This document shows positions 32,020 to 47,053 of a DNA stretch of 64,000 nucleotides, in pieces. Location of the stretch: the NCBI RefSeq assembly GCF_004135345.1, contig NZ_CP035495.1:3720001-3784000 (forward strand), given 5' to 3'. Under the pieces are notes generated by a model, which did no database searches, had not been told where the DNA came from, and saw only the letters and a program-made list of their open reading frames with translations. This DNA is from Xylanimonas allomyrinae (GTDB lineage Bacteria; Actinomycetota; Actinomycetes; Actinomycetales; Cellulomonadaceae). The stretch's first letter is position 1. Each line of letters opens with the position of its first letter. Both the position numbers and the translations under genes were made by a program.

Positions 32020-34112
32020 CCGCCGTTCCCGTCGTCCCCTCGTACGTCCAGGACACCTGGTGGGTCCCCCGGCAGGACGCGGAGGGCGGGGCCGTCGTGC
32101 GCGACGCGGCGACGGGCGAGCCCGTCGCGCGCGTGTCGGCCGCAGGGCTCGACGTCGCCGCCGCGCTCGAGCACGCCCGCACCGTGGGCCAGGAGTCCCT
32201 GGGCGCGCTGACGCTGCACCAGCGCGCCCTGCTGCTCAAGCAGATGGCGCTCGCGCTGACCGCGCGCAAGGGCGAGCTGTACGAGGCGTCGGCGCGCACG
32301 GGCGCCACGCGCCGCGACTCGGCGGTCGACGTCGACGGCGGCATCGGCGTCCTGTTCACCTACTCGTCCAAGGGGCGGCGCGAGCTGCCCAACGCGAACG
32401 TCATCCTCGACGGTCCCGCCGAGGTGCTGTCGAAGGACGGCTCGTTCCTCGGCCGGCACGTGTACACGCGGCTGCCCGGCGTCGCGGTGCAGATCAACGC
32501 CTTCAACTTCCCCGTGTGGGGGCCGCTGGAGAAGCTCGCGCCCGCGTTCCTCGCCGGGGTGCCCACGCTCATCAAGCCCGCGACGCCCACCGCGCCGCTC
32601 ACCGAGGCGTGGGTGCGCATCCTCGCCGACGCCGGGCTGCTGCCCGCCGGCACCGTGCAGCTCGTCTCGGGCGCCGCGCGCGACCTGCTCGACCACCTGC
32701 GGCTGGGGGACGCGGTCGCGTTCACCGGGAGCGCCTCGACCGCGCGGCGGCTGCGCGCGCACCCGGCCGTCGCCGAGGCGGGCGTGCGGTTCACCGCCGA
32801 GACCGACTCGCTCAACGCGAGCGTGCTCGGCCCCGACGCGCTGCCCGGCACGCCCGAGCTCGAGGCGTTCGTGGCCCAGGCCGTCACCGAGATCACCACC
32901 AAGGCCGGGCAGAAGTGCACCGCGATCCGCCGGCTCGTGGTGCCCGGCGTGCTGGTCGACGTCGTCGTCGAACGGCTGCGCGAGCGCCTGGGCGCCACGG
33001 TGGTCGGCGACCCGCGCGCGGAGGGCGTGACCATGGGCCCGCTCGCCTCGACCGACCAGGTCGCCGAGGTGCGCCGCCAGGTCGAACGGCTCGTCGCCGA
33101 CGGCGGCGAGATCGTCGTCGGCGCCCTGCCCGGTGCCGAGGGTCCGCGCGTGCGCCGGGCCGACGGCACCACGGGCACCGTGCCCGGCGGGGCGTTCGTC
33201 GCCCCGCTGGTGCTGCGCTTCGCCGACGGCACCGCGCCGGCGCTGCACGAGGTCGAGGCGTTCGGCCCGGTCGCGAGCGTCGTCGGCTACGGCACCGTGG
33301 CCGAGGCGATCGCCCTCGTCAACCGGGGCGGCGGCTCGCTCGTGACGAGCGTCGTGACCGACGACCCGCAGGCCGCCGTCGCGATCACCCTCGGCATCGG
33401 CGCCGCCCACGGGCGCGTGCTGCTGCTCGACCGTGACGACGCCCGCACGTCGACCGGGCACGGCTCGCCCGTGCCGCACCTCGTGCACGGCGGCCCCGGC
33501 CGCGCCGGCGGCGGCGAGGAGCTGGGCGGCGTGCGCGCCGTCCACCACTACATGCAGCGCACCGCCGTGCAGGGCTCGCCCCGCATGCTGACCGCGCTCA
33601 CGGGCGTCTGGCACCCGGGCGCTGGGACGACGGACGACGGCGAGCACCCCTTCCGCAAGTCGCTCGCGGAGCTGGCGGTCGGCGACCGCGTCGTGTCGGG
33701 GTCGCGCACCGTGACGCTCGCCGACATCGAGACGTTCGCGCACTTCACCGGCGACACGTTCTACGCGCACATGGACGCCGACGCGGCCGCCGCCAACCCG
33801 TTCTTCCCCGGCCGGGTCGCACACGGGTACCTGCTCGTGTCGTGGGCTGCGGGGCTGTTCGTCGACGCGGCCCCCGGCCCGGTGCTGGCGAACTCGGGGC
33901 TGGAGAACCTGCGGTTCGTGACGCCCGTCTCGCCCGGCGACTCGATCCGCGTCGAGCTCACCGCCAAGCAGATCACCCCGCGCGAGACGGAGGACTACGG
34001 CGAGGTGCGCTGGGACGCGGTGCTGCGCAACCAGGACGACGCCCTGGTGGCGGCCTACGACGTGCTGACTCTCGTGGCCAAGACCCGCGCCCAGGTGCCC
34101 GCGCCGGTCTGA
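32016..34112 (+). CDS. paaZ: Bifunctional oxepin-CoA hydrolase / 3-oxo-5,6-dehydrosuberyl-CoA semialdehyde dehydrogenase
   Basis: 698 aa, full length. Residues ~1-530 are an aldehyde dehydrogenase domain (QINAFNFPVWGPLEKL, FTAETDSLN with the Glu, catalytic Cys in KAGQKCTAIRR). Residues ~545-698 are a MaoC-like (R)-hydratase domain that opens the oxepin ring (HFTGDTFYAHMDAD, HGYLLVSWAAGLFV). Last gene of the operon, converging on the TetR gene with a hairpin between them. Confidence 0.95.
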   Translation: MTAVPVVPSYVQDTWWVPRQDAEGGAVVRDAATGEPVARVSAAGLDVAAALEHARTVGQESLGALTLHQRALLLKQMALALTARKGELYEASARTGATRRDSAVDVDGGIGVLFTYSSKGRRELPNANVILDGPAEVLSKDGSFLGRHVYTRLPGVAVQINAFNFPVWGPLEKLAPAFLAGVPTLIKPATPTAPLTEAWVRILADAGLLPAGTVQLVSGAARDLLDHLRLGDAVAFTGSASTARRLRAHPAVAEAGVRFTAETDSLNASVLGPDALPGTPELEAFVAQAVTEITTKAGQKCTAIRRLVVPGVLVDVVVERLRERLGATVVGDPRAEGVTMGPLASTDQVAEVRRQVERLVADGGEIVVGALPGAEGPRVRRADGTTGTVPGGAFVAPLVLRFADGTAPALHEVEAFGPVASVVGYGTVAEAIALVNRGGGSLVTSVVTDDPQAAVAITLGIGAAHGRVLLLDRDDARTSTGHGSPVPHLVHGGPGRAGGGEELGGVRAVHHYMQRTAVQGSPRMLTALTGVWHPGAGTTDDGEHPFRKSLAELAVGDRVVSGSRTVTLADIETFAHFTGDTFYAHMDADAAAANPFFPGRVAHGYLLVSWAAGLFVDAAPGPVLANSGLENLRFVTPVSPGDSIRVELTAKQITPRETEDYGEVRWDAVLRNQDDALVAAYDVLTLVAKTRAQVPAPV

Positions 34113-34169
34113 CCCGGTCGGGCCGGCCTGCGGGTCCGGCCAGCACAGGTCCGGCCCGCACAGGTCCGG

Positions 34170-34194
34170 CCCGCACGGGTCCGGCCCGTGCGGG
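34170..34194. terminator. Bidirectional hairpin between paaZ and the TetR gene
   Basis: Perfect 10-bp inverted repeat CCCGCACGGG / CCCGTGCGGG with loop TCCGG, directly abutting the end of the minus-strand gene. It sits in a short tract (34141-34190) of GGTCCGGCCCGCA-type tandem repeats. Confidence 0.7.
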
Positions 34195-34800
34195 TCAGGC
34201 CCGCAGGCCCTCCAGGGCGACGGCCAGGACGTCGTGGGCAAGGTCGTGCGCCGACTGGGAGCGGTCGGGGCGGTACCACTCGACGATCGAGTTGATCATC
34301 CCGAACAGCAGCCGCTCGACGACGTGCGGGTCGACGTCGGAGCGCAGCGAGCCGTCCTCGATCGCCGCGGCGACGATCCGCTGCACGCGGTTGTCGAACG
34401 CGCGCCGGCGTGCGAGCGCGGCCCGCTCGACCTCGGTGTTGCCGCGCACGCGCAGCAGAAGGGTCACGTACGGGAGCTTCTCGACGAGCACGTGGACGGC
34501 GCCGCTGAGCACGTGCTCGAGCTGGTCCGCGGCCGCGCCCTGGGCGGCGGCCGGGTCGTCGAGCACGGCCTCGAGCGCGTCGAGCGCCTCGCCCACGGCG
34601 AGCTCGAGGATCTGCTCCTTGGCGGTGAAGTGGTGGTAGAGCGCGGACTTCGACAGCCCGAGCCGCTCCGCCAGCAGACCGACGGACGTCGCGTCGTAGC
34701 CGTGCTCGTTGAACGCGTCGACCGCGACGTCGAGGATCTCCCGGCGGTCGTATCCGGGGCGTCCGCGGCGCGTCGGCCGGTCCGGCGTGCGTGGTGCCAT
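34195..34800 (-). CDS. paaR: TetR-family repressor of phenylacetate genes
   Basis: 201 aa. N-terminal TetR HTH (YDRREILDVAVDAFNEHGYDATSVGLLAERLGLSKSALYHHF, about 16-58) and a helical ligand domain. Located between paaZ and paaK in the island, which with the palindromes at 28628 and 36801 supports a PaaR role sensing phenylacetyl-CoA. ATG at 34800 preferred; ATG at 34809 (adding M-S-A) is possible and could be leaderless. No good ribosome site for either. Confidence 0.85.
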   Translation of the reverse strand: MAPRTPDRPTRRGRPGYDRREILDVAVDAFNEHGYDATSVGLLAERLGLSKSALYHHFTAKEQILELAVGEALDALEAVLDDPAAAQGAAADQLEHVLSGAVHVLVEKLPYVTLLLRVRGNTEVERAALARRRAFDNRVQRIVAAAIEDGSLRSDVDPHVVERLLFGMINSIVEWYRPDRSQSAHDLAHDVLAVALEGLRA

Positions 34801-34876
34801 GGCGGACATTCTGACAGTGCGCGCGGTGGGGCCCGCGGCGGCGGCACGGCCTGCGTGCGCCACCGCGGGCCGCACC

Positions 34877-36244
34877 TCAGGCCTCGCGCAGGTCGCGCAC
34901 CCGCTGCGTCTTGCCCTCGGAGCGGGGCAGGCTGCCGGGCGCGGCGAGCCGCACGGCGACGCTCGACCCCACGAACTCCTTGATCTGGAAGGCGAGCTCG
35001 TCGGCCCCGGCCTGTGCCGTCTCGGCCGACAGGCCGGGCTGCGGCTCGACGACGGCGGCGAGCGCGTCCATGCGCCCGGACGTGGTGAGCTCGAGCACGA
35101 AGTGCGCGGTGAGCGCCGGGATGCCGAGCACGAGCTCCTCGATCTGCGTGGGGAACACGTTGACGCCGCGCAGGTTGATCATGTCGTCGTTGCGTCCGGT
35201 GATCTTCGCCATGCGGCGCATGCCCGGGCGGTCCGTGCCGGGCAGCAGGCGCGTCAGGTCGCGCGTGCGGTAGCGCAGGACGGGGAACGCCTCCTTGGTC
35301 AGCGAGGTGAACACGAGCTCGCCGAGCTCGCCGTCGGGCAGGCGCTCGCCGGTCTCGCTGTCGACGACCTCGGGCAGGAAGTGGTCTTCCCAGATGTGCG
35401 GGCCGTCCTTGGTCGCGACGCTCTCGCAGGCGATGCCTGGCCCCATGACCTCGCTGAGCCCGTAGATGTCGACGGCGTCGATGCCGAGGCGCTGCTCGAG
35501 CTCGTTGCGCATCTCGTCCGTCCACGGCTCGGCGCCGCAGATCGCGACCTTGAGGCTGGTCGAGCGCGGGTCGACTCCGGCCTTCTCCATCGCGTCGGCG
35601 ATGGTCAGCAGGTAGGTGGGGGTGCACATGATGGCCTCGGGCTCGAAGTCCCCGATGAGCTTGACCTGCTTGGACGTCTGCCCGCCCGACATGGGGATGA
35701 CGGTGGCGCCGAGCCGCTCGATGCCGGAGTGGGCGCCGAGCCCGCCCGTGAAGAGCCCGTACCCGTAGGCGTTGTGCACGCGCCAGCCCGGCTTGACGCC
35801 GGCCGCGCGCAGCGAGCGGGCCACCAGCCCCGACCAGGTGTCGAGGTCGTCGGGCGTGTAGCCGACGACGGTCGGCAGGCCGGTCGTTCCGGACGACGCG
35901 TGGATGCGTGCGATGCGGTCGCGCGGCACGGCGAACATGCCGAACGGGTAGTTCGCGCGCAGGTCCGCCTTGGTGGTGAAGGGCAGCAGCGTGACGTCGT
36001 CGAGGGTGCGGATGTCGCGCGGGTGGACGCCTGCCTCGTCGAGCGCTTGCCGGTAGTGGGGCACCGCGTGGTAGGCGCGCGCCACGGTCTCCTGGAGGCG
36101 CTGGAGCTGGAGCTCCTCGATCTGCTCGCGTGACATCAGCTCCTCGGCGTCGAGGCCGGTCTCGTACGCGCTCAGCGCGGCGTCGGTGCCGAGAAGGGTC
36201 CGTTCGAGGCGGGGTGCGGGCGTGGCGTTGGTCGTCGTCGACAA
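34877..36244 (-). CDS. paaK: Phenylacetate-CoA ligase
   Basis: 455-aa adenylate-forming enzyme that activates phenylacetate with CoA, the first pathway step. AMP-binding block HASSGTTGLPTVVGYT (about 114-129), the region YGLSEVMGPGIACE, and C-terminal GRNDDMINLRGVNVFP are diagnostic. Start is TTG at 36244 with GGGAGA 5 nt upstream. Preceded by paaI on the same strand with a 24-bp gap, and both are divergent from paaABCDE. Confidence 0.95.
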   Translation of the reverse strand: MSTTTNATPAPRLERTLLGTDAALSAYETGLDAEELMSREQIEELQLQRLQETVARAYHAVPHYRQALDEAGVHPRDIRTLDDVTLLPFTTKADLRANYPFGMFAVPRDRIARIHASSGTTGLPTVVGYTPDDLDTWSGLVARSLRAAGVKPGWRVHNAYGYGLFTGGLGAHSGIERLGATVIPMSGGQTSKQVKLIGDFEPEAIMCTPTYLLTIADAMEKAGVDPRSTSLKVAICGAEPWTDEMRNELEQRLGIDAVDIYGLSEVMGPGIACESVATKDGPHIWEDHFLPEVVDSETGERLPDGELGELVFTSLTKEAFPVLRYRTRDLTRLLPGTDRPGMRRMAKITGRNDDMINLRGVNVFPTQIEELVLGIPALTAHFVLELTTSGRMDALAAVVEPQPGLSAETAQAGADELAFQIKEFVGSSVAVRLAAPGSLPRSEGKTQRVRDLREA

Positions 36245-36268
36245 GATGCTCTCCCGTGCGAAGAGGGG

Positions 36269-36718
36269 TCAGTGGGTGAGGGTGCGCGAGGTCGTGTGGC
36301 TGCGGCCGCGCATTTCGGCGACGACGGTGCCGTCGTCGGCCGTGACGGTGACGTCGTACAGCCCCGTGCGGCCGCGGCGCGCGCGGCGCACCGCCGTGGC
36401 GGTGAGCACGTCGCCGGACGTGGTCGGGGCGAGGAAGGCGATGTCGGCTCCGGAGGAGATGGTGATGCGCTCGTCCTCGTTGCACGCGACGGCGAACGCC
36501 GTGTCCGCGAGCGTGAAGACGACGCCGCCGTGGGTGATGCCGAAGCCGTTGGTGAGCGCGTCGGTGACCGTGAGGGTCATGACCGCGCGGCCGGCGCGCT
36601 CCTCGACGAGGGTGATCCCCAGCAGGTCGCGCACGTTGTCCTCGCGCATCATCGCGCGGACCTCTGGGCGGACCTCTGGGCGAACCGTGGGGACGGGTTC
36701 GGGCGCGAGCTCTGTCAC
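36269..36718 (-). CDS. paaI: Hydroxyphenylacetyl-CoA thioesterase
   Basis: 149 aa hotdog enzyme. A repeat VRPEVRPEV near the N-terminus precedes NVRDLLGITLVEERAG and NGFGITHGGVVFTLADTAFAVACN, the PaaI active-site block with D in ADTAF. Releases CoA from hydroxyphenylacetyl-CoA when the pathway stalls. GTG at 36718 has GAGGAGG 4 nt upstream; longer readings extend across the paaA promoter and are rejected. Confidence 0.9.
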   Translation of the reverse strand: MTELAPEPVPTVRPEVRPEVRAMMREDNVRDLLGITLVEERAGRAVMTLTVTDALTNGFGITHGGVVFTLADTAFAVACNEDERITISSGADIAFLAPTTSGDVLTATAVRRARRGRTGLYDVTVTADDGTVVAEMRGRSHTTSRTLTH

Positions 36719-36793
36719 GTGGCCTCCTCGTTGAGCCGCCGCACACGATACGTGATCGAGGTGGCGGGCCGTCATCTCCAATGTGACCCACAC

Positions 36794-36818
36794 TATACTG
36801 ACCGAACGATCGTTTGGT
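36794..36818 (+). promoter_or_regulatory. paaA promoter -10 and PaaR-type operator
   Basis: TATACT (36794-36799) is a good -10 box on the paaA side. Directly after it, ACCGAACGATCGTTTGGT (36801-36818) is an 18-bp near-perfect palindrome with one mismatched pair, placed over the expected transcription start. This is the position and pattern expected for TetR/PaaR repression of paaABCDE and possibly the divergent paaI-paaK. Confidence 0.75.
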
Positions 36819-36872
36819 AAGGTGCGGCCCGAACAGATCCCGCAGCACCTGCCGAACCCCTTGGAGTCGACG

Positions 36873-37862
36873 ATGACGACGACGACCGAAGCACCGCCGC
36901 GTGACGACCAGCAGGTCTTCGACGCACTGATCGAGGCGGACTCCCGCGTGGAGCCGCGCGACTGGATGCCCGACGCATACCGCCGCACCCTGGTACGCCA
37001 GATCTCCCAGCACGCGCACTCCGAGATCATCGGGATGCAGCCCGAGGCGAACTGGATCACGCGCGCCCCCAGCCTCAAGCGCAAGGCCATCCTCATCGCC
37101 AAGGTGCAGGACGAGGGCGGGCACGGCCTCTACCTGTACTCGGCCGCGCAGACGCTCGGCGCCTCGCGCGAGGACATGCTCGACCAGCTCCACGCAGGCA
37201 AGGCCCGCTACTCCTCGATCTTCAACTACCCCGCCCGCACCTGGGCCGACATGGGCGCCATCGGCTGGCTCGTCGACGGCGCCGCGATCTGCAACCAGGT
37301 CGCGCTGTGCCGCACCTCCTACGGCCCCTACGCCCGGGCCATGGTGCGCATCTGCAAGGAGGAGTCGTTCCACCAGCGGCAGGGGTTCGAGATCCTGCTC
37401 GCGCTCTCGCGCGGCACCGAGGAGCAGCACCAGATGGCCCAGGACGCCGTCGACCGCTGGTACCGGCCCGCGCTCATGATGTTCGGCCCGCCCGACGCCG
37501 AGTCGCCCAACTCGCGGCAGTCGATGGCGTGGAAGATCAAGCGCGTCTCCAACGACGAGCTGCGCCGCCGGTTCGTCGGCATGTGCGTGCCGCAGTTCGA
37601 GGCCCTCGGGCTGACGATGCCCGACCCCGAGCTGCGCTTCGACGAGGAGACCGGCCAGTGGGAGCCCGGCCCGATCGACTGGGACGAGTTCCACGAGATC
37701 CTCGCCGGCCGCGGCCCCCTGAACGCCGAGCGCATGCGACGCCGTCGTGCGGCGCACGACGAGGGTGCGTGGGTCCGCGACGCCGCGGCCGCCTACGCCC
37801 GCAAGCAGACCGAGCGCCCGGCACCGGCCGGCGCGAGCAACCACAAGGAGGTGGCGGCGTGA
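36873..37862 (+). CDS. paaA: Phenylacetyl-CoA epoxidase subunit A
   Basis: Catalytic di-iron subunit, 329 aa, that epoxidises the ring of phenylacetyl-CoA. Iron-ligand regions visible: [12 protein letters not shown] (E-x-x-H) and [12 protein letters not shown] (E-x-x-H), with [13 protein letters not shown] upstream. ATG 36873 with TTGGAG upstream. Overlaps paaB by 4 bp, starting the paaABCDE-paaG operon. Confidence 0.97.
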
Positions 37863-38164
37863 CCACGCCTGGCTACAGCGAGAAGGAGTCCTGGCCCCTG
37901 TGGGAGGTGTTCGTCCGTGCCGGGCGAGGCCTGTCCCACGTTCACGTCGGCTCGCTGCACGCACCCGACGCGACGCTCGCGGTGCGCAACGCGCGCGACC
38001 TGTACACGCGCCGCCGCGAGGGCCTGTCGATCTGGGTGGTGCCCGCCGCGGCGGTCACCACGAGCGACCCCGACGCGCGCGACGAGTGGTTCGAGAGCCC
38101 GGCGGGCAAGAACTACCGGCACGCCGTCTACTACACGCACGCCGAGGGGGTGCGTCACCTGTGA
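37859..38164 (+). CDS. paaB: Phenylacetyl-CoA epoxidase subunit B
   Basis: Small structural subunit, 101 aa, that bridges PaaAC units. [27 protein letters not shown] and [12 protein letters not shown]-like region ([16 protein letters not shown]) are typical. GTG at 37859 overlaps the paaA stop; its stop overlaps paaC. Confidence 0.95.
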
Positions 38165-39033
38165 GCGCCACCCGCACCGCGGACGACGTCCACGGCGACA
38201 TCCACCGCGACGTCCACGGCGACATCCACGGCGACGTCCACGTCGATGCCGTCGAGCTCGACCCCGAGCTGGTCGGTGCCGGCGGCGCGGACGCCGACCA
38301 CGACGTCGCGCAGTACGCCCAGTGGCTGGGCGACGACGCCCTCGTCCTCGCCCAGCGCCTCGGTGCCTGGATCTCCCGCGCGCCCGAGCTCGAGGAGGAC
38401 ATCGCGCTCGGCAACATCGCGCTCGACCTCGTCGGCCAGGCACGGTCGCTGCTGCACCACGCCGGCACGGCCGACGGGCGCAGCGAGGACGACCTCGCCT
38501 ACTTCCGCGACGAGACCGAGTTCCGCTCGAGCTGGCTCGTCGAGCAGCCCAACGGGGACTTCGCCGCCACCATCGCGCGCCAGCTCGTCGCCTCGACGTA
38601 CATGCACGAGCTGTACGCGCGCCTCCAGCACGCGAGCGAGCCGACGCTCGCGGCGATCGCCGCCAAGGCGGTGCTCGAGGTCGCCTACCACCGCGACCAC
38701 GCCGTGCAGTGGACGCTGCGCCTGGGCGACGGCACCGACGAGTCCCGCCGCCGCATGGTCGCGGGGCTCGACGCCGTGTGGCCCTACGTGGACGAGCTGT
38801 TCGCCGACACCCCGCTGATCGACCGCCTGGGCGACCGTGCCGTGCGCCCGTCCACGCTGCGCGAGCCCGTGCTGGCCGCGCTGCGTGACGTGCTGCGGCA
38901 GGCGGGGCTCGCCGAGCCCGACCTCCCCCCGGCCCCGTGCGGCGGTCGCGCCGGCCGGCACAGCGAGTACCTCGGCTACATCCTGGCCGAGATGCAGGTG
39001 CTCGCCCGGCAGCACCCCGGTGCGTCGTGGTGA
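38161..39033 (+). CDS. paaC: Phenylacetyl-CoA epoxidase subunit C with His-rich N-terminal repeat
   Basis: 290 aa, structural partner of PaaA. Core from about residue 48: YAQWLGDDALVLAQRLGAW, EEDIALGNIALDLVGQARSLLHHAG, FLLVEQPNGDFA-type block (SWLVEQPNGDFAATIARQ) and EVAYHRDHAVQW. Unusual: residues 9-28 are five D-V/I-H-G/R/V units not expected in PaaC. GTG start overlaps paaB; a later start (for example GTG/ATG after the repeat) is not clearly supported. Confidence 0.93.
   Translation: MSATRTADDVHGDIHRDVHGDIHGDVHVDAVELDPELVGAGGADADHDVAQYAQWLGDDALVLAQRLGAWISRAPELEEDIALGNIALDLVGQARSLLHHAGTADGRSEDDLAYFRDETEFRSSWLVEQPNGDFAATIARQLVASTYMHELYARLQHASEPTLAAIAAKAVLEVAYHRDHAVQWTLRLGDGTDESRRRMVAGLDAVWPYVDELFADTPLIDRLGDRAVRPSTLREPVLAALRDVLRQAGLAEPDLPPAPCGGRAGRHSEYLGYILAEMQVLARQHPGASW
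38185..38244 (+). repeat. Five 12-bp tandem repeats at the start of paaC
   Basis: Units of GACrTCCACsGC encode D-V/I-H-x five times in frame, giving five His in 20 residues. Confidence 0.85.
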
Positions 39034-39524
39034 CCAGCATCGACGGCGAGGTCGCGCGCGCCTGGCAGGCGGCCGCCGCCGTCGTCGACCCCGAGGTGCC
39101 CGTGCTGACCATCGAGGATCTCGGCGTGCTGCGGTCGGTCACCGTGACGGGCGACACCGCGCGCGCGGCGATCACCCCGACGTACTCCGGCTGCCCCGCC
39201 GTCGACGCCATCCGCTGCGACGTCGCCGACGCGCTGCGCGGTGCCGGCTACCGCGACGTCAGCGTCGACGTCGTGCTCGCCCCCGCGTGGTCCACCGACT
39301 GGATGACCGACGCCGGCAAGCACAAGCTGCGTGCATACGGCATCGCGCCCCCGTCGGGCCGGGCCGCGCACTCCGGGCCCGTCCCGATCGCGCTGTCCGT
39401 CCGCTGCCCGCGGTGCGGTTCGCTGTCCACGCGCGAGATCGCGCACTTCGGCTCGACCTCGTGCAAGGCGCTGTACGAGTGCTCGGCCTGCCTCGAGCCG
39501 TTCGACTACTTCAAGGTGCACTGA
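39030..39524 (+). CDS. paaD: Phenylacetate degradation protein PaaD (Fe-S/di-iron maturation)
   Basis: 164 aa. N-terminal DUF59/MIP18-like region (VVDPEVPVLTIEDLGVLRSV, TPTYSGCPAVDAI) plus a C-terminal zinc-type cluster CPRCGS ... CKALYECSACLEPFDYFKVH with four or more Cys. Thought to assist metal/cluster assembly of the epoxidase. GTG 39030 overlaps the paaC stop by 4 bp. Confidence 0.93.
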   Translation: MTSIDGEVARAWQAAAAVVDPEVPVLTIEDLGVLRSVTVTGDTARAAITPTYSGCPAVDAIRCDVADALRGAGYRDVSVDVVLAPAWSTDWMTDAGKHKLRAYGIAPPSGRAAHSGPVPIALSVRCPRCGSLSTREIAHFGSTSCKALYECSACLEPFDYFKVH

Positions 39525-40630
39525 TGACGACCACCGCGACCCCCACCCGCCGCCGCGCCCGCTTCCACACCCTCCGGGTGACGCGGGTGCGGCCCCTGAC
39601 GACCGACAGCGTCGAGGTCACGTTCGCCGTGCCCGGCGCGCTCGCCGACGACTACGACTACGCGCCCGGGCAGTACGTGGCCCTGCGCGCCACCATCGAC
39701 GGCCAGGAGGTGCGCCGCAGCTACTCGCTGTGCCGGCCCCCGCAGGCCGGCGAGATCGCCGTGGCGATCAAGCGCGACCACGGCGGACTCTTCTCCACCT
39801 GGGCCAACGACGTCCTCGCCGCCGGTGCCGAGATCGACGTCATGAGCCCGCAGGGCACGTTCACCAGCGACCTGCGCGACCTGGACGGCAAGCACCTGGC
39901 CGGCATCGCGGCCGGCTCGGGCATCACCCCGCTCATGGCGCTCGTGCGCAGCACGCTCGACGGCTCGCCGACGGCGCGCGTCAGCCTCGTCTACGCCAAC
40001 CGCTCCACGCCCGACGTGATGTTCCTCGAGGAGCTCGCCGATCTCAAGGACCGCTACCCGGACCGGTTCGCGCTGCACCACGTGCTCACGCGCGAGAAGC
40101 GCACCGCCCCGCTGCTGTCGGGCCACCTCGACGCCGACCGCCTCGACGCGGTGCTGAACGGCCTGGTCCGCCCGCAGACCGTGGACGAGTGGTTCCTGTG
40201 CGGGCCCCTCGGCCTGGTGCAGACGTGCCGCGACTCGCTCGACCGCGCCGACGTCGACCGGACCCACGTGCGCTACGAGCTGTTCACCACGGGCGAGCCC
40301 GGCGACGGCCCTCGCCGCGCCGCGCCGGTGACGACCGGCGACGGGCCGAGCGTCCAGATCGACTTCACGCTCGACGGGCAGTCGGCGCGGGTCACCACCC
40401 CCGTCGACGCGCGCGAGACGATCCTCGATGCCGCGTTGCGCGTGCGGCCCGACACGCCGTTCGCGTGCGCGGGCGGGGTGTGCGGCACGTGCCGGGCGCG
40501 CGTGATCGAGGGCAGCGTGCAGATGGCCGAGAACTACGCGCTCGAACCGGAGGAGATCGAGCGCGGGTACGTGCTCACGTGCCAGTCGCACCCGACGACG
40601 CCGTGCGTCGTCCTCGACTACGACGTGTGA
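39524..40630 (+). CDS. paaE: Phenylacetyl-CoA epoxidase reductase subunit
   Basis: 368 aa. FAD-binding (RRSYSLCRPP, about 65-74) and NAD(P)-binding (GIAAGSGITPLMALV) ferredoxin-reductase domains, then a C-terminal plant-type 2Fe-2S domain with CAGGVCGTC and a last Cys in LTCQSH. Transfers electrons from NAD(P)H to PaaA. ATG shares one base with the paaD stop. Confidence 0.95.
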   Translation: MTTTATPTRRRARFHTLRVTRVRPLTTDSVEVTFAVPGALADDYDYAPGQYVALRATIDGQEVRRSYSLCRPPQAGEIAVAIKRDHGGLFSTWANDVLAAGAEIDVMSPQGTFTSDLRDLDGKHLAGIAAGSGITPLMALVRSTLDGSPTARVSLVYANRSTPDVMFLEELADLKDRYPDRFALHHVLTREKRTAPLLSGHLDADRLDAVLNGLVRPQTVDEWFLCGPLGLVQTCRDSLDRADVDRTHVRYELFTTGEPGDGPRRAAPVTTGDGPSVQIDFTLDGQSARVTTPVDARETILDAALRVRPDTPFACAGGVCGTCRARVIEGSVQMAENYALEPEEIERGYVLTCQSHPTTPCVVLDYDV

Positions 40631-40641
40631 GGGGGGACGCC

Positions 40642-41439
40642 ATGATCAGGCTCACGCTCGACGGCGACGCCGGTGTCGCCGAGATCGTCCTCGACGCCCC
40701 CAAGCGGCTCAACGCCATCGACGAGACCGGGCTCAGAGAGCTCGCCGACGCGCTGGCGAGGGCACGCCGCGCCCGGGTGCGCGCCCTGGTGCTGCACGGC
40801 GTGGGGCGCGCATTCTGCGCGGGGCGCGACATCGCGGGCGTCGACCCGGCGCTCGACGACCCGCTGCAGTTCCTCGGCGTCCACGTGGCCCCCGTGATGC
40901 GGAGCCTGGCCGAGTTCCCCGCCCCGACCTACGCCGTCGCGCACGGCGCGTGCCTCGGCGTCGGACTCGGGCTGCTCATCGCCTCCGACGTGGTGCTCGT
41001 CGCCGACGACGCCAAGATCGGCTCCCCGTTCGCCGGCATCGGGGCCACGCTCGACTCGGGCGGGCACGCGCTGTTCTACGAACGGCTCGGCGCGCACCGC
41101 ACGCTCGACCTCGTGTACTCGGGCCGGCTCATGACCGGGGCCGAGGCCGTCGCCGCAGGCCTGTTCTCACGCGTCGTGCCCGCCGAGGAGGTGCTGGAGG
41201 AGGCACGGTCCGCGGCACGCGCCGCCGCGTCCGGCCCCACCCAGGCGTTCGTCGCGAGCAAGCGCCTCGTGGCCGAGCTGCGTGACCGGCGGATCGGGCT
41301 GTGGACGTCGATGGACGCCGAGAACCGCGCGCAGGCCGTGCTGTCCGACACCGACGACTACCACGAGGGGTTCGCGGCGTTCCAGGCCAAGCGGGCCCCG
41401 CAGTTCACCGGCGCGCCCCTGGCGTCCCGAGCCCACTGA
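40642..41439 (+). CDS. paaG: Ring-1,2-epoxyphenylacetyl-CoA isomerase
   Basis: 265-aa crotonase-fold enzyme, last gene of the epoxidase operon. GVGRAFCAGRDIAGVD and HGACLGVGLGLLIASDVVLVADDAKIGSPFAGIG supply the CoA-binding and oxyanion-hole blocks; an Asp in IGSPFAGIGATLDSG could be catalytic. Converts the epoxide to oxepin-CoA, the substrate of PaaZ. ATG 40642, 11 bp after paaE with a G-rich ribosome site. Confidence 0.88.
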   Translation: MIRLTLDGDAGVAEIVLDAPKRLNAIDETGLRELADALARARRARVRALVLHGVGRAFCAGRDIAGVDPALDDPLQFLGVHVAPVMRSLAEFPAPTYAVAHGACLGVGLGLLIASDVVLVADDAKIGSPFAGIGATLDSGGHALFYERLGAHRTLDLVYSGRLMTGAEAVAAGLFSRVVPAEEVLEEARSAARAAASGPTQAFVASKRLVAELRDRRIGLWTSMDAENRAQAVLSDTDDYHEGFAAFQAKRAPQFTGAPLASRAH

Positions 41440-41473
41440 GGCCGTCGACCCGGCGCGTGGCGCCGTCGCCCTT

Positions 41474-42208
41474 TCACCGCATCAGCGCGACGACGCGGGG
41501 TGACGGCTCCACGCGCAGCTCGGCGCGCAGGCGGCGGCGGAACGCGTCGAACGTGCGCCTGGCCTCGACGACGCTGCCCTCGGCCAGGTGCAACGAGATG
41601 AGCAGCATCGCCGGCTCCTCGCGCAACGGGTCGAGCTCCGCCGCCGCCTCCGCCGCCGCGATGGCCCACGACGTCTCACCCAGCCGTGCGAGCTCACGCG
41701 TCAGGTGCTCCAGAGCGTGCAGGCGCTGACGCTGCAGGCGCCGGCGCTCCTGCTCGACCCACTCGTCGAACTCGCCCAGCAGAAGCTCGGGCCCGACGAT
41801 CGCGTGCAACGCGTCGACCGCGCGCCGCACCGTCAGCCGCGCCCCCGACAGGACGTCGTCACAGTGGGCGCGCACCTCGTGGACGTCCACCGCGAGCCCC
41901 GGCACCAGCCCCAGCGAGCCCGTGCCGACGACGAACCCGCCCGGCAGCACCTGCTTGAGCGTGCGCAGCGACTGCCGCAGGCTCGCGCGGGCGCGGTCCT
42001 CGGGCACCTCGGGCCACAGCGTCCCGGCGATGTGCCCGCGCGGGCGCGATCCCTGGAGCGCGAGCAACGAGACGAGCAGGCGCTCGCGGTGCTGGAGCGG
42101 GACGGCCGCGCCGCAGCGCTTCACCGTGACGTCCCCGAGCAACGTCACGCGATAGTCACTCCAGGCCGCCTCGCGCCGTGCGGCGGCGGCTTCCACGGTC
42201 ATCGCCAT
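41474..42208 (-). CDS. SARP/BTAD-family transcription regulator
   Basis: 244 aa. An OmpR-like DNA-binding region (about 12-95: VTLLGDVTVKRCGAAVPLQHRERLLVSLLALQGSRPRGHIAGTLWPE, ARASLRQSLRTLKQVL) is followed by the bacterial transcriptional activation domain (about 105-240, helical, EFDEWVEQERRRLQRQRLHALEHLTRELARLG). No ATPase domain, so a small SARP. ATG 42208 chosen; ATG 42202 also possible. Divergent from the peptide operon whose promoter carries SARP-like phased repeats, so it is the probable activator. Converges with paaG. Confidence 0.87.
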   Translation of the reverse strand: MAMTVEAAAARREAAWSDYRVTLLGDVTVKRCGAAVPLQHRERLLVSLLALQGSRPRGHIAGTLWPEVPEDRARASLRQSLRTLKQVLPGGFVVGTGSLGLVPGLAVDVHEVRAHCDDVLSGARLTVRRAVDALHAIVGPELLLGEFDEWVEQERRRLQRQRLHALEHLTRELARLGETSWAIAAAEAAAELDPLREEPAMLLISLHLAEGSVVEARRTFDAFRRRLRAELRVEPSPRVVALMR

Positions 42209-42211
42209 GAA

Positions 42212-42244
42212 TCGCACCCCGAGTAGTTCGACTCGCACCCCGAG
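42212..42244. promoter_or_regulatory. Direct repeats upstream of the SARP gene
   Basis: TCGCACCCCGAG at 42212-42223 and again at 42233-42244, two helical turns apart, plus a partial third copy from 42252. They lie immediately before the regulator start and may be its own control site. Confidence 0.5.
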
Positions 42245-42378
42245 CACCTCCCGCACCCCGGCGCGAAGTGGTCGGCCCTCATGGACAAGAGGGGGCGGGA
42301 GCGCGTTCGTGACACGGCACGCCGCGGCTCACGAACACCGCCACGGTAAGGCGGCGCTGCGGCGCACGACAGCCCATG

Positions 42379-42465
42379 TCACGCGCAGATCACGGTCCGA
42401 TCACGCCCGCCTCACACGATGGTGACGCACGCACGACGCCCGGGTCACGGGCGCCCGCCTACCGT
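42379..42465 (+). promoter_or_regulatory. SARP-type promoter of the peptide operon
   Basis: Seven heptamers start every 11 bp from 42379 to 42445: TCACGCG, TCACGGT, TCACGCC, TCACACG, TGACGCA, CGACGCC, TCACGGG. The last ends at 42451 and is separated by exactly 8 bp from TACCGT (42460-42465), a plausible -10. SARP activators are known to bind heptameric direct repeats at 11-bp spacing with the last copy 8 bp before the -10, so the architecture fits closely. Confidence 0.8.
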
Positions 42466-42504
42466 CGCCTCGTCCCGACACCGTGGGAGAGGGGGTGACA
42501 AGCA

Positions 42505-42711
42505 ATGAACGAGATCACGTTCCTCGAGCTGGAGGGCGAGTCGACCGAGCTGCTTCCCGAACGGGAGACGCTGCTGTGGAACACGAACATCTTCCGCACC
42601 AACTACGCCAGTGTCGTCGCGTCGAACTCCTCGCTGGCCCTCAACGCCGCGTCGCTGTTCTCCGCGGCATCCAGCAACGCGCTGCAGTCCATCACCGTCG
42701 CCCAGGGCTGA
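42505..42711 (+). CDS. Small precursor-like peptide 1 (ELLPERETL family)
   Basis: 68 aa, no known name. An acidic leader-like N-terminus (1-24) ends in ELLPERETL; the remainder is small-residue and Asn/Ser/Ala-rich with VASNSSLALNAAS and ends in VAQG. It aligns with peptide 2 over both blocks. No Cys; Ser/Thr are plentiful. ATG 42505 preceded by a G-rich site (GGGGGTG). First gene under the SARP-type promoter; followed by a PqqD-like/M50 protein, so a processed peptide is likely, though the modification or cleavage is unknown. Confidence 0.78.
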   Translation: MNEITFLELEGESTELLPERETLLWNTNIFRTNYASVVASNSSLALNAASLFSAASSNALQSITVAQG

Positions 42712-42844
42712 CCTGCCGGCGCCATGAACGCCCGGTGTCGCCGTGCCGTGGACCCGCGCGGCGCGCAGGGAGCCTCCCACCCCGAGGGCACGCGAGCCGT
42801 GCCTGCGGGCGGCGGCACCGGGCCTGTCCAGGAAGTGAGCTGCC

Positions 42845-43063
42845 ATGCACGACCTCATCTCGGGCGACGAGCTCGCCGCGCAGAGCGTCGAACTCCTCCC
42901 GGAACGCGAGACGTTGTTCCTCTTCCGGGGCTTCTCGCCGGTCAGCGTCAACGTCGCGCCCGTCGTCGCCGTCAACGTGAGCCTCGCCCTGAACGCCGCG
43001 ACGATCGGGTCGACGGCCGCCAGCGACATCCTCCAGGGCCTGTCCCTCACCCTCGGGCGCTAG
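42845..43063 (+). CDS. Small precursor-like peptide 2 (ELLPERETL family)
   Basis: 72 aa, homologous to peptide 1: SVELLPERETL (about 14-24), then a hydrophobic stretch FLFRGFSPVSVNVAPVVAV, the shared NVSLALNAA and AAS-x-x-LQ, ending in LTLGR. No Cys. ATG 42845 with AGGAAGTGAG upstream. The leader-like part is more conserved than the tail, as in bacteriocin or RiPP precursors, but no signal peptide or double-Gly site is present. Confidence 0.78.
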   Translation: MHDLISGDELAAQSVELLPERETLFLFRGFSPVSVNVAPVVAVNVSLALNAATIGSTAASDILQGLSLTLGR

Positions 43064-43129
43064 CCCGTCAGCGCGACCACCGGCGCCGGACCGATCTGCG
43101 GCGCCGGCGGTCACGCCCCGGAGCAGACC

Positions 43130-45844
43130 ATGACCGCCACGGCCCTCCCGCGTCACGTGCCGCCGCCTGCGCCGCAGCCGGTGTCGCCGTCCGTGCGCGC
43201 CGAGCCCCGCTGGGCGCGGCCCGCCGGGACGGCGCTGCTCGGGCGCGTGTCCGGGTCCGGCCTGGCCAGGCCCGCGTACCTGGTGCGCCGCCCGGACGGG
43301 CAGGTCGTTCAGGTCTCCGAGCTGGTCAACACCGTGCTCGCGCGCCTCGACCCGCGTCGCACCGCCGCCGAGGTCGCCGCGGCCGTCTCGAGCGCCTACG
43401 GGCGCACGCTCACCGCCGACGGCCTCCACCACCTCGTCACCATGAAGCTGCGGCCCGCGGGCCTGGCCGACGACGCCGCGACGCAGCGCGCGCCGGGCCC
43501 GGCCGCTCCGCGCTCGGCGCCGCTGCTGAGCCTCGCGCTGCGCGGCACGGTCGTCCCCGCGCGCGCGGTGCGCCGTGTCGCCCGCGTGCTCACCCCCACG
43601 TTCCATCCGGCCGTCGTGGCCGCCGTGCTCGCCGCCTGGGTCGCCGTCGTCGTCGCCGTCGTGCTGCGCGCGCAGGTGCTCGACGCCGTCGCGACCGTGC
43701 TTCGGACACCCGCCGTGCTCGTGGGCGTCTTCGCGCTCATGACGTTCTGCGAGCTGGTCCACGAGCTGGGCCACGCGGTCGCGTGCTCGTCCTCGGGTGC
43801 GACGCCGGGGCGTGTCGGCGTCGGCGTCTACCTGCTCGCGCCCGCGTTCTTCACCAACGTGACGGACTCCTACCGGCTCGGCCGGGCCGGGCGGCTGCGC
43901 ACCGACCTGGGCGGCCTGTACTACACCGTGTGGTGCATGCTCGCCGTCGCGATCGCGCAGCTCGCGACCGGCGACCCGGTGCTGCTCGTCGTGCTCGTGC
44001 TCCTGCACGTCGAGGCCGCAGAGCAGCTCCTGCCGGCCGTGCGGCTCGACGGCTACTACGTGCTCGCCGACCTCGCGGGCGTCCCCGACCTGTTCGGGCG
44101 TGTCGCTCCCGTGCTGCGCTCCGTCCTGCCCGGCCGCGCCGTCGACCCTCGCGTGGCCGACATGCTGCCGTGGGCGCGGCGGGCCGTCACCGCGTGGGTG
44201 CTGCTCGTGGTGCCGCTGCTCGCGGGCGGGCTGGTGTGGCTCGCCTGGCACGTGCCGCAGCTCGCGCGCACGCTCGCCGACGCCGTCGCGCACCAGTGGT
44301 CCCTGCTCGACGCCGCACTGGTGGCCCACCAGTGGCCGGGCGTCGCCCTCGGGCTCGTCTCGCTCGCCCTGCTGGCCGTGCCCGTGGCCGGAGTGGCGGC
44401 GTTCGTGGCCCGCATCGTGCAGACGGCCGCCGCCCTCGTGCGCCGCCGGTACGCCCACACCCGGCACGAGGGCCGCGACCGCGAACGATCCAGGAGGCAG
44501 ATCATGGACGCGATCACCACCCCGGGCGCCCACACGGGCCCCGGACGAGCCGACGACGACGCAGGCCCGGGTGCTCCGCGCCCGCCCGCGGCCGTCGCCG
44601 ACCCGTGGTTCACTCCCGAGCTCCCGAGCTGGTCCTCGGGGTTCGACCTGCTCGCCGCCCTCGGCCGCGAGCCGGCCGTGCCCGGGCAGAAGCGCGACGC
44701 CGCACGTGCGCCCGCGTTCGACGACGCCCGGCACCTCGACGCAGGGCCGGGCGCGGCACCAGCCCCGCCGGCCCGCACCGCTGGTCTCGCCGTCATCCCA
44801 GCGGCCGCTCGGACGACCACTCTCGACGGCGGCCCCGAGGGCGGCCCCGACGGCGGTGCTGCACGCGGCCCCGAGGGCGGCCCCGGCGACGGCACCCGCC
44901 TGAGCGGTCTCACCGCGGCCGACCTGACCGACGCCACCGTGCTGGGCGCCCCGCGCCGGGTCGCCGCGACCGGCTGGCGTCGCGCCGTGCGCGCCGGCAC
45001 GCACGGCGCCGTCGCTCTCGGCCCCAGCCGCGCCGAGCTGCGCCACGAGGCCGTGCTCGACCGCGTCCGCACGCCCATCGACGGGACCCGCCGCGTGCTC
45101 GTCATGAGCCGCAAGGGAGGTGTCGGCAAGACGTCCGTGACCGTCGGGCTCGGCGCGACGTTCGCGAGCCTGCGCGGGGACCGCGTCGTCGCCGTCGACG
45201 CCAACCCCGACGCCGGCAACCTGGCCCGGCGCATCGCGGGGGACTGCGACCGCACCGTCACCGACCTGCTCGCCGACGCCGACCGGATCGACAGCTTCTC
45301 GACGATGCGCCGCTACACCTCGCAGTGCCCCGAGTCGCGCCTGGAGGTGCTCGCGTCGAACGACGACGCCCGCATCACGCAGGCGCTCGACCGCGCCGCC
45401 TACGAGCGCGTCGTCGGCCTGCTCGACCACTACTACAACCTGGTGCTGCTCGACACCGGCACAGGCATTCTCGACAGCGCCAACCAGGGCCTGCTCGCCG
45501 AGGCGGACGAGCTCGTGCTGGTGCTGCGCCCCGCGCTCGACGGCGCCCGCGCCGGCGCGCAGACGCTCGACTGGCTCGAGGAGCACGGTCACGGGAACCT
45601 GGTCGGCACTGCCGTGGTCGTCGTCAACGGGGTGGCCGACCCGGCAGACCCGGCCGTCGGCATCGTGCGCGAGCACTTCGAGCAACGGTGCGCGCACGTG
45701 GCGCTCGTCCCGTGGGACAAGACGCTGCTCGCCGGCGGGCGCACCACGCTGGGCGCGCTCGCCCCGCGCACACGTGAGGCGTTCATGCAGGTCGCGGCCG
45801 CACTCGCCGACTCGTTCCACGAGCGCGGGAGGGCCGACCGGTGA
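43130..45844 (+). CDS. PqqD-like domain + M50 membrane protease + MinD/ParA-like ATPase fusion
   Basis: 904 aa. Residues ~40-118 form a PqqD-like winged helix (YLVRRPDGQVVQVSELV ... LHHLVTMKLRPAGL), a fold that often binds peptide leaders. Residues ~150-445 are a polytopic M50 peptidase with H-E-x-x-H in VHELGHAVAC (near 211) and the distal Asp in RLDGYYVLADL. Residues ~460-625 are a Pro/Gly linker, and ~645-904 are a MinD/CpsD-like ATPase with deviant Walker A RKGGVGKTS and VVAVDANPDAGNL. An internal AGGAGG/ATG at 44492-44506, in frame, could also start the ATPase alone (446 aa). Likely recognises and cleaves or moves the two peptides; proposed, not shown. Confidence 0.83.
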   Translation: MTATALPRHVPPPAPQPVSPSVRAEPRWARPAGTALLGRVSGSGLARPAYLVRRPDGQVVQVSELVNTVLARLDPRRTAAEVAAAVSSAYGRTLTADGLHHLVTMKLRPAGLADDAATQRAPGPAAPRSAPLLSLALRGTVVPARAVRRVARVLTPTFHPAVVAAVLAAWVAVVVAVVLRAQVLDAVATVLRTPAVLVGVFALMTFCELVHELGHAVACSSSGATPGRVGVGVYLLAPAFFTNVTDSYRLGRAGRLRTDLGGLYYTVWCMLAVAIAQLATGDPVLLVVLVLLHVEAAEQLLPAVRLDGYYVLADLAGVPDLFGRVAPVLRSVLPGRAVDPRVADMLPWARRAVTAWVLLVVPLLAGGLVWLAWHVPQLARTLADAVAHQWSLLDAALVAHQWPGVALGLVSLALLAVPVAGVAAFVARIVQTAAALVRRRYAHTRHEGRDRERSRRQIMDAITTPGAHTGPGRADDDAGPGAPRPPAAVADPWFTPELPSWSSGFDLLAALGREPAVPGQKRDAARAPAFDDARHLDAGPGAAPAPPARTAGLAVIPAAARTTTLDGGPEGGPDGGAARGPEGGPGDGTRLSGLTAADLTDATVLGAPRRVAATGWRRAVRAGTHGAVALGPSRAELRHEAVLDRVRTPIDGTRRVLVMSRKGGVGKTSVTVGLGATFASLRGDRVVAVDANPDAGNLARRIAGDCDRTVTDLLADADRIDSFSTMRRYTSQCPESRLEVLASNDDARITQALDRAAYERVVGLLDHYYNLVLLDTGTGILDSANQGLLAEADELVLVLRPALDGARAGAQTLDWLEEHGHGNLVGTAVVVVNGVADPADPAVGIVREHFEQRCAHVALVPWDKTLLAGGRTTLGALAPRTREAFMQVAAALADSFHERGRADR
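44492..44506 (+). promoter_or_regulatory. Internal ribosome site and in-frame ATG for the ATPase domain
   Basis: AGGAGG at 44492-44497, 6-nt spacer, ATG at 44504-44506, exactly at the junction between the M50 and MinD-like parts and in the same frame. Confidence 0.6.
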
Positions 45845-46938
45845 GGGCCCCCGGTACCGCGACGTCGAGCGTCGCCGTGCTGGTGGCGTCCGCGCTGCTC
45901 GCCGGGGCGGCCTGGCTCCCGCAGGCGCCCTGGTTCCCGCACGCGTCCTGGTCCTGGGGGACGCAGTCCGACGTCGAGCTGGTCGCGACGGCGCACACCG
46001 ACGTCGGACGCTCGGCGCTGACCGACGCGCGGGGCCGCACCTTCGCCGTGCGCGACGGCGGTCACGCACGGGCGACGGCGACGGCGTCGGCCCTGTGCGA
46101 CGGGTGCGCCGGCCGGGCGGCGACCGTCGAGGTCGTGTACGTGCCCCGCGGCGGGGCGACGGCCGACAACGTGGCCGCCGCGTGGGCGTCGGGCGGGTCG
46201 GGGACGGCCAGCGCGGTGGCCGTGCAGGTCGTCGTCCAGCGGCCCGGCACGGGCGTGACCGCGAGCAACCGCGCGCTCGCCGTCTCGGCCGACTGCGCGG
46301 GATGCACCGCCGAAGCCGTCGCGGTGCAGGTGGTCGTGCTCACGCGGCTCGACCGGACGGTCTCTGCGCGCACCCGGGCGCTGCTCGAGAACCTCGCGGA
46401 CGTGCTCGGCACTCCGGTGCCGGACGGGCCGCACCTGCGCCGGTCGCACCACAGCGGGCCGTGGGCGCGCGGGGCGGCGTTCCCGGCGCCCGACGGCGCG
46501 CGCGGCCGGTCGCCATGGGCCGCGACACTGCTCGCGCCCGCGCCGCTCGCCCGACCGGTGGTGCTGGGCGAGCGGGTGGTGCTGGGGGCGTCGGTGCCGT
46601 CGGGGGAGCAGGAACGGCTGGGGGACCCGGCGTCGTCGGGCTCGCCGCCGCCGACCGCCGCGCCGGACGAGCCGGTCGCCCCGGCTCCCGCACCGGGGGA
46701 GGGTCCCGACGCCGGGGACTCACCGGAGCCTCCGCCGGGCCCAGGGACGCCGGGCCCGTCACCCTCCACGTCGCCCGTCGTCCCCAGCCCGGCGCCGTCG
46801 CCTGCGGTGATGCGGCCCCTGCCCGCGCCCGACGATCCCACGCCGAGCGCGGCCGAGGGGGCGCTCGACGCGGTGCTGGCCCAGCTCGCGAGGGACTACA
46901 TGACGGGGGCGGTCACGGTCGACGTCGACGAGGGATGA
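45841..46938 (+). CDS. Secreted CxxC repeat protein of the peptide locus
   Basis: 365 aa, function unknown. GTG start overlaps the fusion gene by 4 bp. Signal peptide about 1-25. Residues ~70-170 hold three tandem modules; the first and third contain C-x-x-C (CDGC, CAGC), and each ends in A-V/T-V/A-V-E/Q-V-V. The third module aligns without gaps to the core of peptides 1 and 2. A basic segment, then a long Pro/Ser/Gly-rich tail (~240-330) typical of wall-spanning regions, complete the protein. No LPxTG seen. Probably the exported partner or scaffold of the peptides. Confidence 0.75.
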   Translation: MRAPGTATSSVAVLVASALLAGAAWLPQAPWFPHASWSWGTQSDVELVATAHTDVGRSALTDARGRTFAVRDGGHARATATASALCDGCAGRAATVEVVYVPRGGATADNVAAAWASGGSGTASAVAVQVVVQRPGTGVTASNRALAVSADCAGCTAEAVAVQVVVLTRLDRTVSARTRALLENLADVLGTPVPDGPHLRRSHHSGPWARGAAFPAPDGARGRSPWAATLLAPAPLARPVVLGERVVLGASVPSGEQERLGDPASSGSPPPTAAPDEPVAPAPAPGEGPDAGDSPEPPPGPGTPGPSPSTSPVVPSPAPSPAVMRPLPAPDDPTPSAAEGALDAVLAQLARDYMTGAVTVDVDEG

Positions 46939-46980
46939 CACGTGGCCGCTGGTCGCGGTCGCTCGCGGCCCCCGCACACG

Positions 46981-47022
46981 ACGAAGCACCCGCCCGGGCC
47001 ACGGCCCGAGCGGGTGCTTCGT
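46981..47022. terminator. Strong bidirectional terminator
   Basis: ACGAAGCACCCGC pairs with GCGGGTGCTTCGT, continued by CGGGCC/GGCCCG with one mismatch and a 2-nt gap, giving a 42-bp hairpin between the convergent peptide locus and the sugar ABC genes. Confidence 0.85.
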
Positions 47023-47053
47023 GTGTGCCGCGCAGGCGGCAGGTCGGGGCCGG

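Follow-up and report, generated by a model that had tools for sequence, protein, structure and literature searches.

A locus of Xylanimonas allomyrinae that may use a RiPP-type leader and an intramembrane protease to secrete unmodified beta-module subunits

We analysed a locus within a 64,000-nucleotide stretch of the Xylanimonas allomyrinae genome (contig NZ_CP035495.1, positions 3,720,001 to 3,784,000 of the forward strand; this whole stretch is called the window). The locus is compact, and a gene for a SARP-like regulator lies divergent from genes for two small peptides (pepA and pepB), for a protein that joins a region resembling the recognition element (RRE) of ribosomally synthesised and post-translationally modified peptides (RiPPs) to an M50 site-2 protease and a MinD-type ATPase, and for an exported protein with CxxC motifs (CxxC protein; Table 1). 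An original prediction, made from the DNA letters, had described an uncharacterised SARP-controlled peptide system here, and this observation was borne out as a whole, with all parts present and relatives in 82 distinct loci. The predicted terminator corresponds to a strong hairpin, which has no clear T run, and of the predicted overlaps between genes only one exists, of 4 nt, between the CxxC gene and the preceding fusion gene. We think it quite possible, as a tentative reading, that the locus encodes a secreted surface-structure system using RiPP leader logic, in which RRE-guided intramembrane proteolysis frees beta-module subunits, themselves unmodified, to assemble at the surface together with their disulfide-capable CxxC relative.

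The peptides encoded by pepA and pepB are homologous and have the leader motif ELLPERETL in common, certain positions of which are invariant or nearly so among aligned relatives (Table 1). Identity to pepA was 75 and 72% in two relatives of the same genus. The region following the leader had been described as a variable tail; it is actually a conserved 21-residue module. Out of 178 unique peptides, 148 matched the strict pattern N-x5-[NS]-x2-[CST]-x2-[CST]-x7-Q after the leader, and 172 matched the looser pattern N-x5-N-x13-Q, compared to a mean of 0.2 (maximum 2) and 3.3 (maximum 8), respectively, in 200 shuffles per core. Since the pattern was formulated after the peptides had been seen, and the peptides are related, these shuffles test composition only. 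The count of 178 leaves out three peptides of locus L112 without the leader pattern, and long open reading frames (ORFs) with a non-terminal match. By a crude one-residue rule, peptides of types A and B were both present in 56 of 76 loci. No significant Pfam or NCBIfam match was obtained for 98 members of the peptide family (best E 0.021 and 0.01). Longer peptide proteins, in which the module is followed by an Asn/Gln- or Asp/Arg-rich tail, were seen at L022 (1462-1899) and L023 (1162-1725).

The CxxC protein contains a repeat with the same spacing as the peptide module and with Cys at both turn positions. Among 147 repeats in 63 CxxC ORFs, 84 were exactly 21 residues long, 34 were of 22 residues and 29 of 20. 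AlphaFold2 produced a confident model of the CxxC domain from a 48-sequence alignment (Table 1), in which paired 12-residue strands form an all-beta structure ahead of the C-terminal helix. The window's protein contains three versions of the module. Two of these have CxxC at the turn, and both CxxC pairs sit in turns of the model. The signal segment of this protein was assessed by eye. Scanning 48 CxxC domains against Pfam gave scattered weak matches (best 2.5e-4, at most four members per family), one member matched in an NCBIfam scan (7.8e-4), and a PDB sequence search with the CxxC alignment yielded nothing useful.

Similarity between the peptide core and the CxxC repeat was monitored with profile models. 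When the window's own genome was searched with an 8-row peptide model, the CxxC protein was the only non-peptide match (E value in Table 1), and in genome G143 the match of a peptide model is itself a CxxC protein (E 3.7e-4). Comparison of the core and repeat profiles gave P 0.001 and a probability of 21.5, with a maximum of 2.63 in 60 column-permuted controls. A core-only model was built from 170 cores, excluding those of the window and its close relatives, and searched against 11,375 ORFs. Judged by full sequence it matched 8 of the 63 CxxC ORFs with E up to 1, and judged by the best single domain 6 (best 0.0015); the other 19 rows consisted of 10 peptide copies, 8 two-module leader proteins and a single ORF that looks by eye like a frameshifted peptide. 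Taken from sequence, the peptide core and the CxxC repeat appear to be the same module, a conclusion in which we have moderate confidence.

An alignment scan of the fusion protein against named genome contigs found 316 relatives, of which the best 80 loci were kept. Removal of the duplicates L045 and L051 and addition of L010, L011, L012 and the window gave the 82 distinct loci. A peptide gene was adjacent in 78 of these; at L083, L102 and L116 the M50 gene lies at a contig end, and at L114 a long two-module protein is found instead. A CxxC protein was encoded within 5 kb in 60 of the 82 loci, including three in which it is fused to the M50 protein; the repeat pattern was confirmed in 59 of the 60, the exception (L111) being truncated by a contig end. 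A SARP relative was found within 5 kb in 59 loci. The order of the five genes is the same in three relatives (L010-L012), from genomes G008 and G001 of the same genus and G075 of another family of the order. This conserved order, together with the association across 82 loci, indicates that the locus is not a product of chance.

Distribution within the family is patchy, with the peptides found in 3 of 221 genomes, all of the window's own genus. Further occurrences of the cassette are in Nocardioides, Arthrobacter-type genera, Sinomonas, Intrasporangium and Georgenia, and in metagenome-assembled genomes titled Chloroflexi, Acidimicrobiia and Frankiaceae. The original prediction had paired the leader peptides with the RRE-like/M50 protease, and this pairing held in a sample of 396 genomes of the phylum: 12 genomes matched the 8-row peptide model, 11 of which have an RRE-M50 gene, in 10 cases within 1.5 kb. 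A 98-row peptide model matched 15 genomes and an RRE-M50 profile (E up to 1e-40) matched 25, with 13 in common (Fisher p 6.6e-16, a partly circular test, because the 98-row model was built from M50-adjacent peptides and the own genome forms part of the sample). In genome G104 there was no M50 match, and in G261 the M50 gene is on a different contig from the peptide and CxxC genes. Homologues of the peptides had been expected in the company of M50, MinD-type and CxxC genes; apart from G104 and G261, the M50 link is nearly strict, and the links to the CxxC and ATPase genes are looser.

A direct connection between the protease and the CxxC protein was seen in ten loci (L114, L116, L119, L148-L152, L155 and L160), where the M50 part and a CxxC domain are encoded in one ORF. 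All ten fusions have two CxxC pairs following the M50 part. Nine of them, L116 at its contig end being the exception, are preceded by the gene of a leader protein of ~220-345 aa, which has a leader of the form LP-x-K-E (for example LP-D/A-K-E-V) and two modules with a low-complexity stretch between them. There are at least three architectures, namely the separate M50 protein, the M50-ATPase fusion and the M50-CxxC fusion with two-module subunits. Since leader proteins of this size with two modules exist, a structural subunit fits better than a signal or a small antibiotic. The product had originally been assigned to a surface assembly or an antimicrobial; an assembly subunit is now the more likely of the two and an antimicrobial the less likely.

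These data bear on two other readings of the peptides. In the first, pepA and pepB, freed of their leaders by the RRE-M50 protein, would form a two-peptide bacteriocin, or another secreted bioactive peptide, that hits neighbouring cells, with the CxxC protein acting in immunity or as an escort. The pairing of types A and B is in keeping with this, as are the patchy distribution and the frequent SARP gene, for SARPs typically regulate specialised metabolism. Epipeptides and daptides provide precedents for bioactive products, as described in the available parts of PMC10036551 and PMC7614699. However, the core is polar and rich in Asn, Ser and Gln, a module like that of an exported protein, the two-module leader proteins of the other architectures are long, and no recurrent immunity-like gene was present among the neighbour clusters, where ABC genes were confined to Nocardioides-type and two other loci and lay on the opposite strand. 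We consider a bacteriocin rather unlikely. In the second reading, the released cores would be pheromones sensed by the producer and the CxxC protein would bind them, which would suit short peptides made alongside a dedicated protease and an adjoining transcriptional regulator. Yet no recurrent receptor gene was seen among the neighbour clusters read, SARPs are not known to be peptide receptors, and neither the conserved cores of ~40 residues, which come in at least two types, nor the two-module proteins look like signals. A role in signalling is very improbable.

In the fusion protein of the window, Pfam detects only the ATPase part. Among NCBIfam models, that of the daptide protease, NF041824, matches best (residues 51-321; 108.8 bits, under the cut-off of 300), and a weak match was also obtained with the epipeptide protease model NF058609 (YydH/LiaK; 31 bits, cut-off 225). 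HExxH is present in 82 of 82 loci and [FL]DGY in 80, which identifies an M50 site-2 protease by its motifs; the membrane helices of this part were assessed by eye. Of the fusion proposed originally, PqqD-M50-MinD, the protease motifs and the CbiA match of the ATPase stood (Table 1), and the PqqD label was found to be weak. Pfam PqqD matched 5 of 66 aligned relatives of the RRE-like region (best E 9.9e-4), unrelated families gave comparable scores (DUF3320, 1.4e-4, one member; DUF6668, 1.6e-3, four members), and no PqqD match was found in the window's RRE-like region or anywhere in its own genome. A PDB sequence search with the alignment of this region gave nothing useful. The match to the DapP-type model gives stronger support to an RRE-like identity than Pfam PqqD does; members of the DapP-type family are described as site-2 proteases with a fused RRE (PMC10036551, available part).

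An ATPase is fused to the M50 protein in 42 of the 82 loci. The MinD-type ATPase was rejected as a core part of the system, as 40 of the 82 loci are without a fused ATPase. Judging from the ribosome-binding-like site before it, an internal start at 44504 may yield a free ATPase; the same site occurs in L011, and of 44 fused ORFs (with the duplicates L045 and L051 counted), 13 have a Shine-Dalgarno-like site at some point of the linker. Six rows of other ATPase matches were found in the own genome; the one at C1 ~2.148 Mb (L132) looks by eye like a Flp-pilus locus of the CpaE/TadZ kind, and another (L133) is on a plasmid. The ATPase may also resemble ATPases associated with ESX systems. On the minus strand (42692-46069), a 1125-residue open frame runs antisense to the fusion gene and is probably a G+C artefact.

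The protease match raises the possibility of an unrecognised daptide branch, or of another RiPP whose modification enzymes are encoded elsewhere in the genome. Daptides provide the nearest named relative of the protease; they too have several precursors per locus, and their RRE-site-2-protease fusion appears to have a counterpart here (PMC10036551, available part). However, the score is far below the NF041824 cut-off, the leader is unlike ELExMEAP, and a C-terminal Thr, invariant in daptides, was the last residue in only 9 of 178 peptides, those of the window ending in G and R. The neighbourhood was surveyed in 540 ORFs within 5 kb that passed a simple coding filter, and the 16 largest clusters, each covering 5-17 loci, were read. 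No RiPP modification enzyme was seen among these 16 clusters, nor among the 25 Pfam families listed out of 103 that were matched by 146 same-strand neighbours within 3.5 kb (each family in at most six members), in agreement with the original observation that no such enzyme is present. Decarboxylases, aminotransferases and methyltransferases were likewise missing among the listed clusters and families, a result that does not extend to whole genomes, which were not searched. With the enzymes absent nearby, C-terminal Thr missing and the score low, membership in the daptides or in another RiPP class was not accepted, and we regard this explanation as improbable. That the locus fits no known class had also been proposed at the outset and agrees with the lack of the C-terminal Thr and of nearby DapB/C/D/M that define daptides.

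A mechanism for the secretion of beta-module subunits can be proposed. The SARP-like protein would switch the operon on. SARP binding sites are direct repeats, and the two 15-nt repeats at 42209..42244 are a possible operator; an 11-nt repeat with 11-nt spacing occurs in the corresponding gap of L011, and no such repeats were found at the regulator 5' end on inspection of the gap in L010. The RRE-like domain would then bind the [E]LLPxR[E/D]TL leader of pepA and pepB, and the fused M50 protease would cut in the membrane, near the end of the leader motif. For daptides, the RRE-dependent intramembrane peptidase MpaP takes off the leader (PMC10036551), and the M50 protease EpeP is the presumed agent of both cleavage and export of the epipeptide EpeX (PMC10885120, PMC7614699), as stated in the available parts of these papers. 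A core of ~40-46 residues would be handed out, with or without the MinD-type ATPase, and each unmodified core would contain one 21-residue strand-turn-strand module. Outside the cell, the two core types may stack on the exported CxxC protein, which would act as anchor, nucleator or cap; a heteromeric beta-fibre or layer is the probable form of the stack. The further claim that this constitutes a new route of surface-fibre export and assembly, combining a RiPP-type leader, an RRE and an intramembrane protease with polymerisation on a disulfide-stapled, module-bearing relative, is possible but somewhat doubtful.

Several observations weigh against the secretion of such subunits and their assembly on the CxxC protein. 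In 22 of the 82 loci (some at contig ends) no CxxC gene lies within 5 kb, and ten Arthrobacter/Pseudarthrobacter-type loci that have both peptides are among them; the loci without a fused ATPase count against the system as it was first drawn. The similarity of the modules is modest, and most CxxC proteins are unmatched by the core-only model. Applied to the ORFs of the window, this model ranked an unrelated ORF (E 0.89) directly after the two peptides, and the CxxC protein was not among its top six matches. A repeat model matched the window's CxxC protein at 1.3e-11, an unrelated ORF at 0.14 and pepA and pepB at 0.28 and 0.29, and within the loci just 3 of the 178 peptide ORFs were matched, along with one unrelated ORF. 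The AlphaFold2 model of pepA was poor (pLDDT 67.7, pTM 0.27), and we therefore base no structural claim on the lone peptide. Foldseek found no significant PDB match for the CxxC model: FapC ranked first (E 5.1e-3, TM 0.12, probability 0.06) and CsgA sixth (E 0.2), with TM scores of ~0.1. Some RRE-M50 genes adjoin leader-bearing peptides with different, short and hydrophobic cores (L154, 757-963 and 987-1157; L025, 1498-1689), so that the RRE-M50 device may serve other cargo too. Finally, an FtsX-like ABC permease is encoded on the opposite strand in 11 Nocardioides-type loci (e.g. L103, 10962-13682) and an ABC ATPase, also on the opposite strand, in 7 loci (e.g. L055, 13932-14654); the ABC genes next to Nocardioides-type clusters might serve export or immunity in that lineage.

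Coordinates of the features of the locus are collected in Table 1.

Table 1. Features of the pepA-pepB locus, in positions of the window
Feature	Position	Strand	Evidence or remark
SARP-like regulator, BTAD domain	41474..42208, alternative GTG start 42256	-	Pfam BTAD 55.9 bits (cut-off 22.1), 7.8e-15
Two 15-nt direct repeats, 21 nt apart	42209..42244	.	Immediately 5' of regulator ATG
pepA, 68 aa, leader-bearing, type A	42505..42711	+	
Leader motif ELLPERETL, pepA	42547..42573	+	L17 invariant, P18 and R20 nearly so (98 aligned peptides)
21-residue module N41-Q61, pepA, S-x2-S in turn	42625..42687	+	
pepB, 72 aa, leader-bearing, type B	42845..43063	+	
Leader motif ELLPERETL, pepB	42890..42916	+	
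21-residue module N44-Q64, pepB, T-x2-S in turn	42974..43036	+	
RRE-like / M50 site-2 protease / MinD-type ATPase fusion, 904 aa	43130..45844	+	
RRE (PqqD-like) region, approximate	43184..43480	+	Overlaps NF041824 match
M50 intramembrane protease region, approximate	43540..44480	+	HELGH, LDGY
In-frame ATG behind AGGAGG (AGGAGG-N6-ATG), between protease and ATPase	44504..44506	+	Sequence
MinD/ParA-type ATPase domain	44951..45841	+	Pfam CbiA 38.1 bits (cut-off 25.4), 1.8e-09
Exported CxxC protein: N-terminal hydrophobic segment, CxxC module domain, Pro-rich linker	45841..46938	+	
CxxC domain: strand-turn-strand units and C-terminal helix	45958..46455	+	AlphaFold2 pLDDT 92.8, pTM 0.84
CxxC module N143-Q163, in register with peptide core	46267..46329	+	8-row peptide model match 46252-46344, E 0.0046
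Strong terminator-like hairpin	~46976..47026	+	-43.8 kcal/mol, z -5.93

Among the neighbouring genes, a protein of ~95 residues (VIRVWSE...FRARL) is encoded near 17 loci (L062, 5482-5769; L052, 5423-5683; L059, 5389-5628; L012, 7579-8289), and an exported-looking protein of ~580 residues lies on the opposite strand in 12 Nocardioides-type loci (e.g. L056, 4106-5854). A lipoprotein gene is found directly 3' of the CxxC gene in six loci of a distant clade (e.g. L091, 10435-11268), and a LuxR-type response regulator in six loci, partly with and partly without a SARP gene. The other neighbour clusters are lineage-specific genes. Upstream of the locus in the window (~30000-41450), the genes look by eye like those of phenylacetate catabolism (paa) and related acyl-CoA enzymes.

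The RRE-like domain, M50 protease, SARP and ParA-type ATPase are parts known in kind. We regard the system as a whole as new because the peptides and the CxxC protein belong to unnamed families, the daptide definition does not apply and no recurrent modification enzyme is found nearby; the mechanism we hold as quite possible. A search of open-licence PMC papers found none that describes this system in its title or the start of its abstract, although the daptide paper was returned. If the proposal is correct, the RRE-plus-protease logic of modified natural products also secretes structural proteins, and some loci mined as RiPP clusters may not yield natural products. Monoderm soil bacteria would then possess surface fibres made by a system different from both chaplins and curli.

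Chaplins and rodlins of Streptomyces are small secreted actinobacterial surface proteins that assemble, but they are exported by Sec, have other sequences and are not known to involve an RRE-M50 protease. The curli repeat is a short strand-turn-strand unit with Asn/Gln positions, and the system described here resembles curli (CsgA/CsgB) and Fap amyloids in having short strand-turn-strand repeats with such positions and a subunit with a related second protein. Unlike curli and Fap, the leader here is apparently removed by RRE-M50 rather than the subunit simply following Sec export, and neither sequence comparison nor the Foldseek search with the CxxC model gave a significant match to FapC or CsgA. 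In the epipeptide system EpeXEP, an M50 protein (EpeP/YydH) is likewise the proposed enzyme for cutting and exporting a small peptide (PMC10885120 and PMC7614699, available parts), whereas here the peptide and leader are different, no radical SAM epimerase was seen nearby and the window operon is without an EpeAB-like transporter. Daptides (DapP/MpaP, MpaA) are similar in having an RRE-like domain N-terminal to the M50 part, several leader-bearing precursors and an occurrence in Actinomycetota (PMC10036551, available part). In contrast to daptides, DapB/C/D/M-like genes are absent from the operon and from the listed neighbours, the peptides have no C-terminal Thr and carry the leader LLPxRETL, a SARP and an optional MinD-type ATPase accompany them, and the core resembles a module of the exported CxxC protein.

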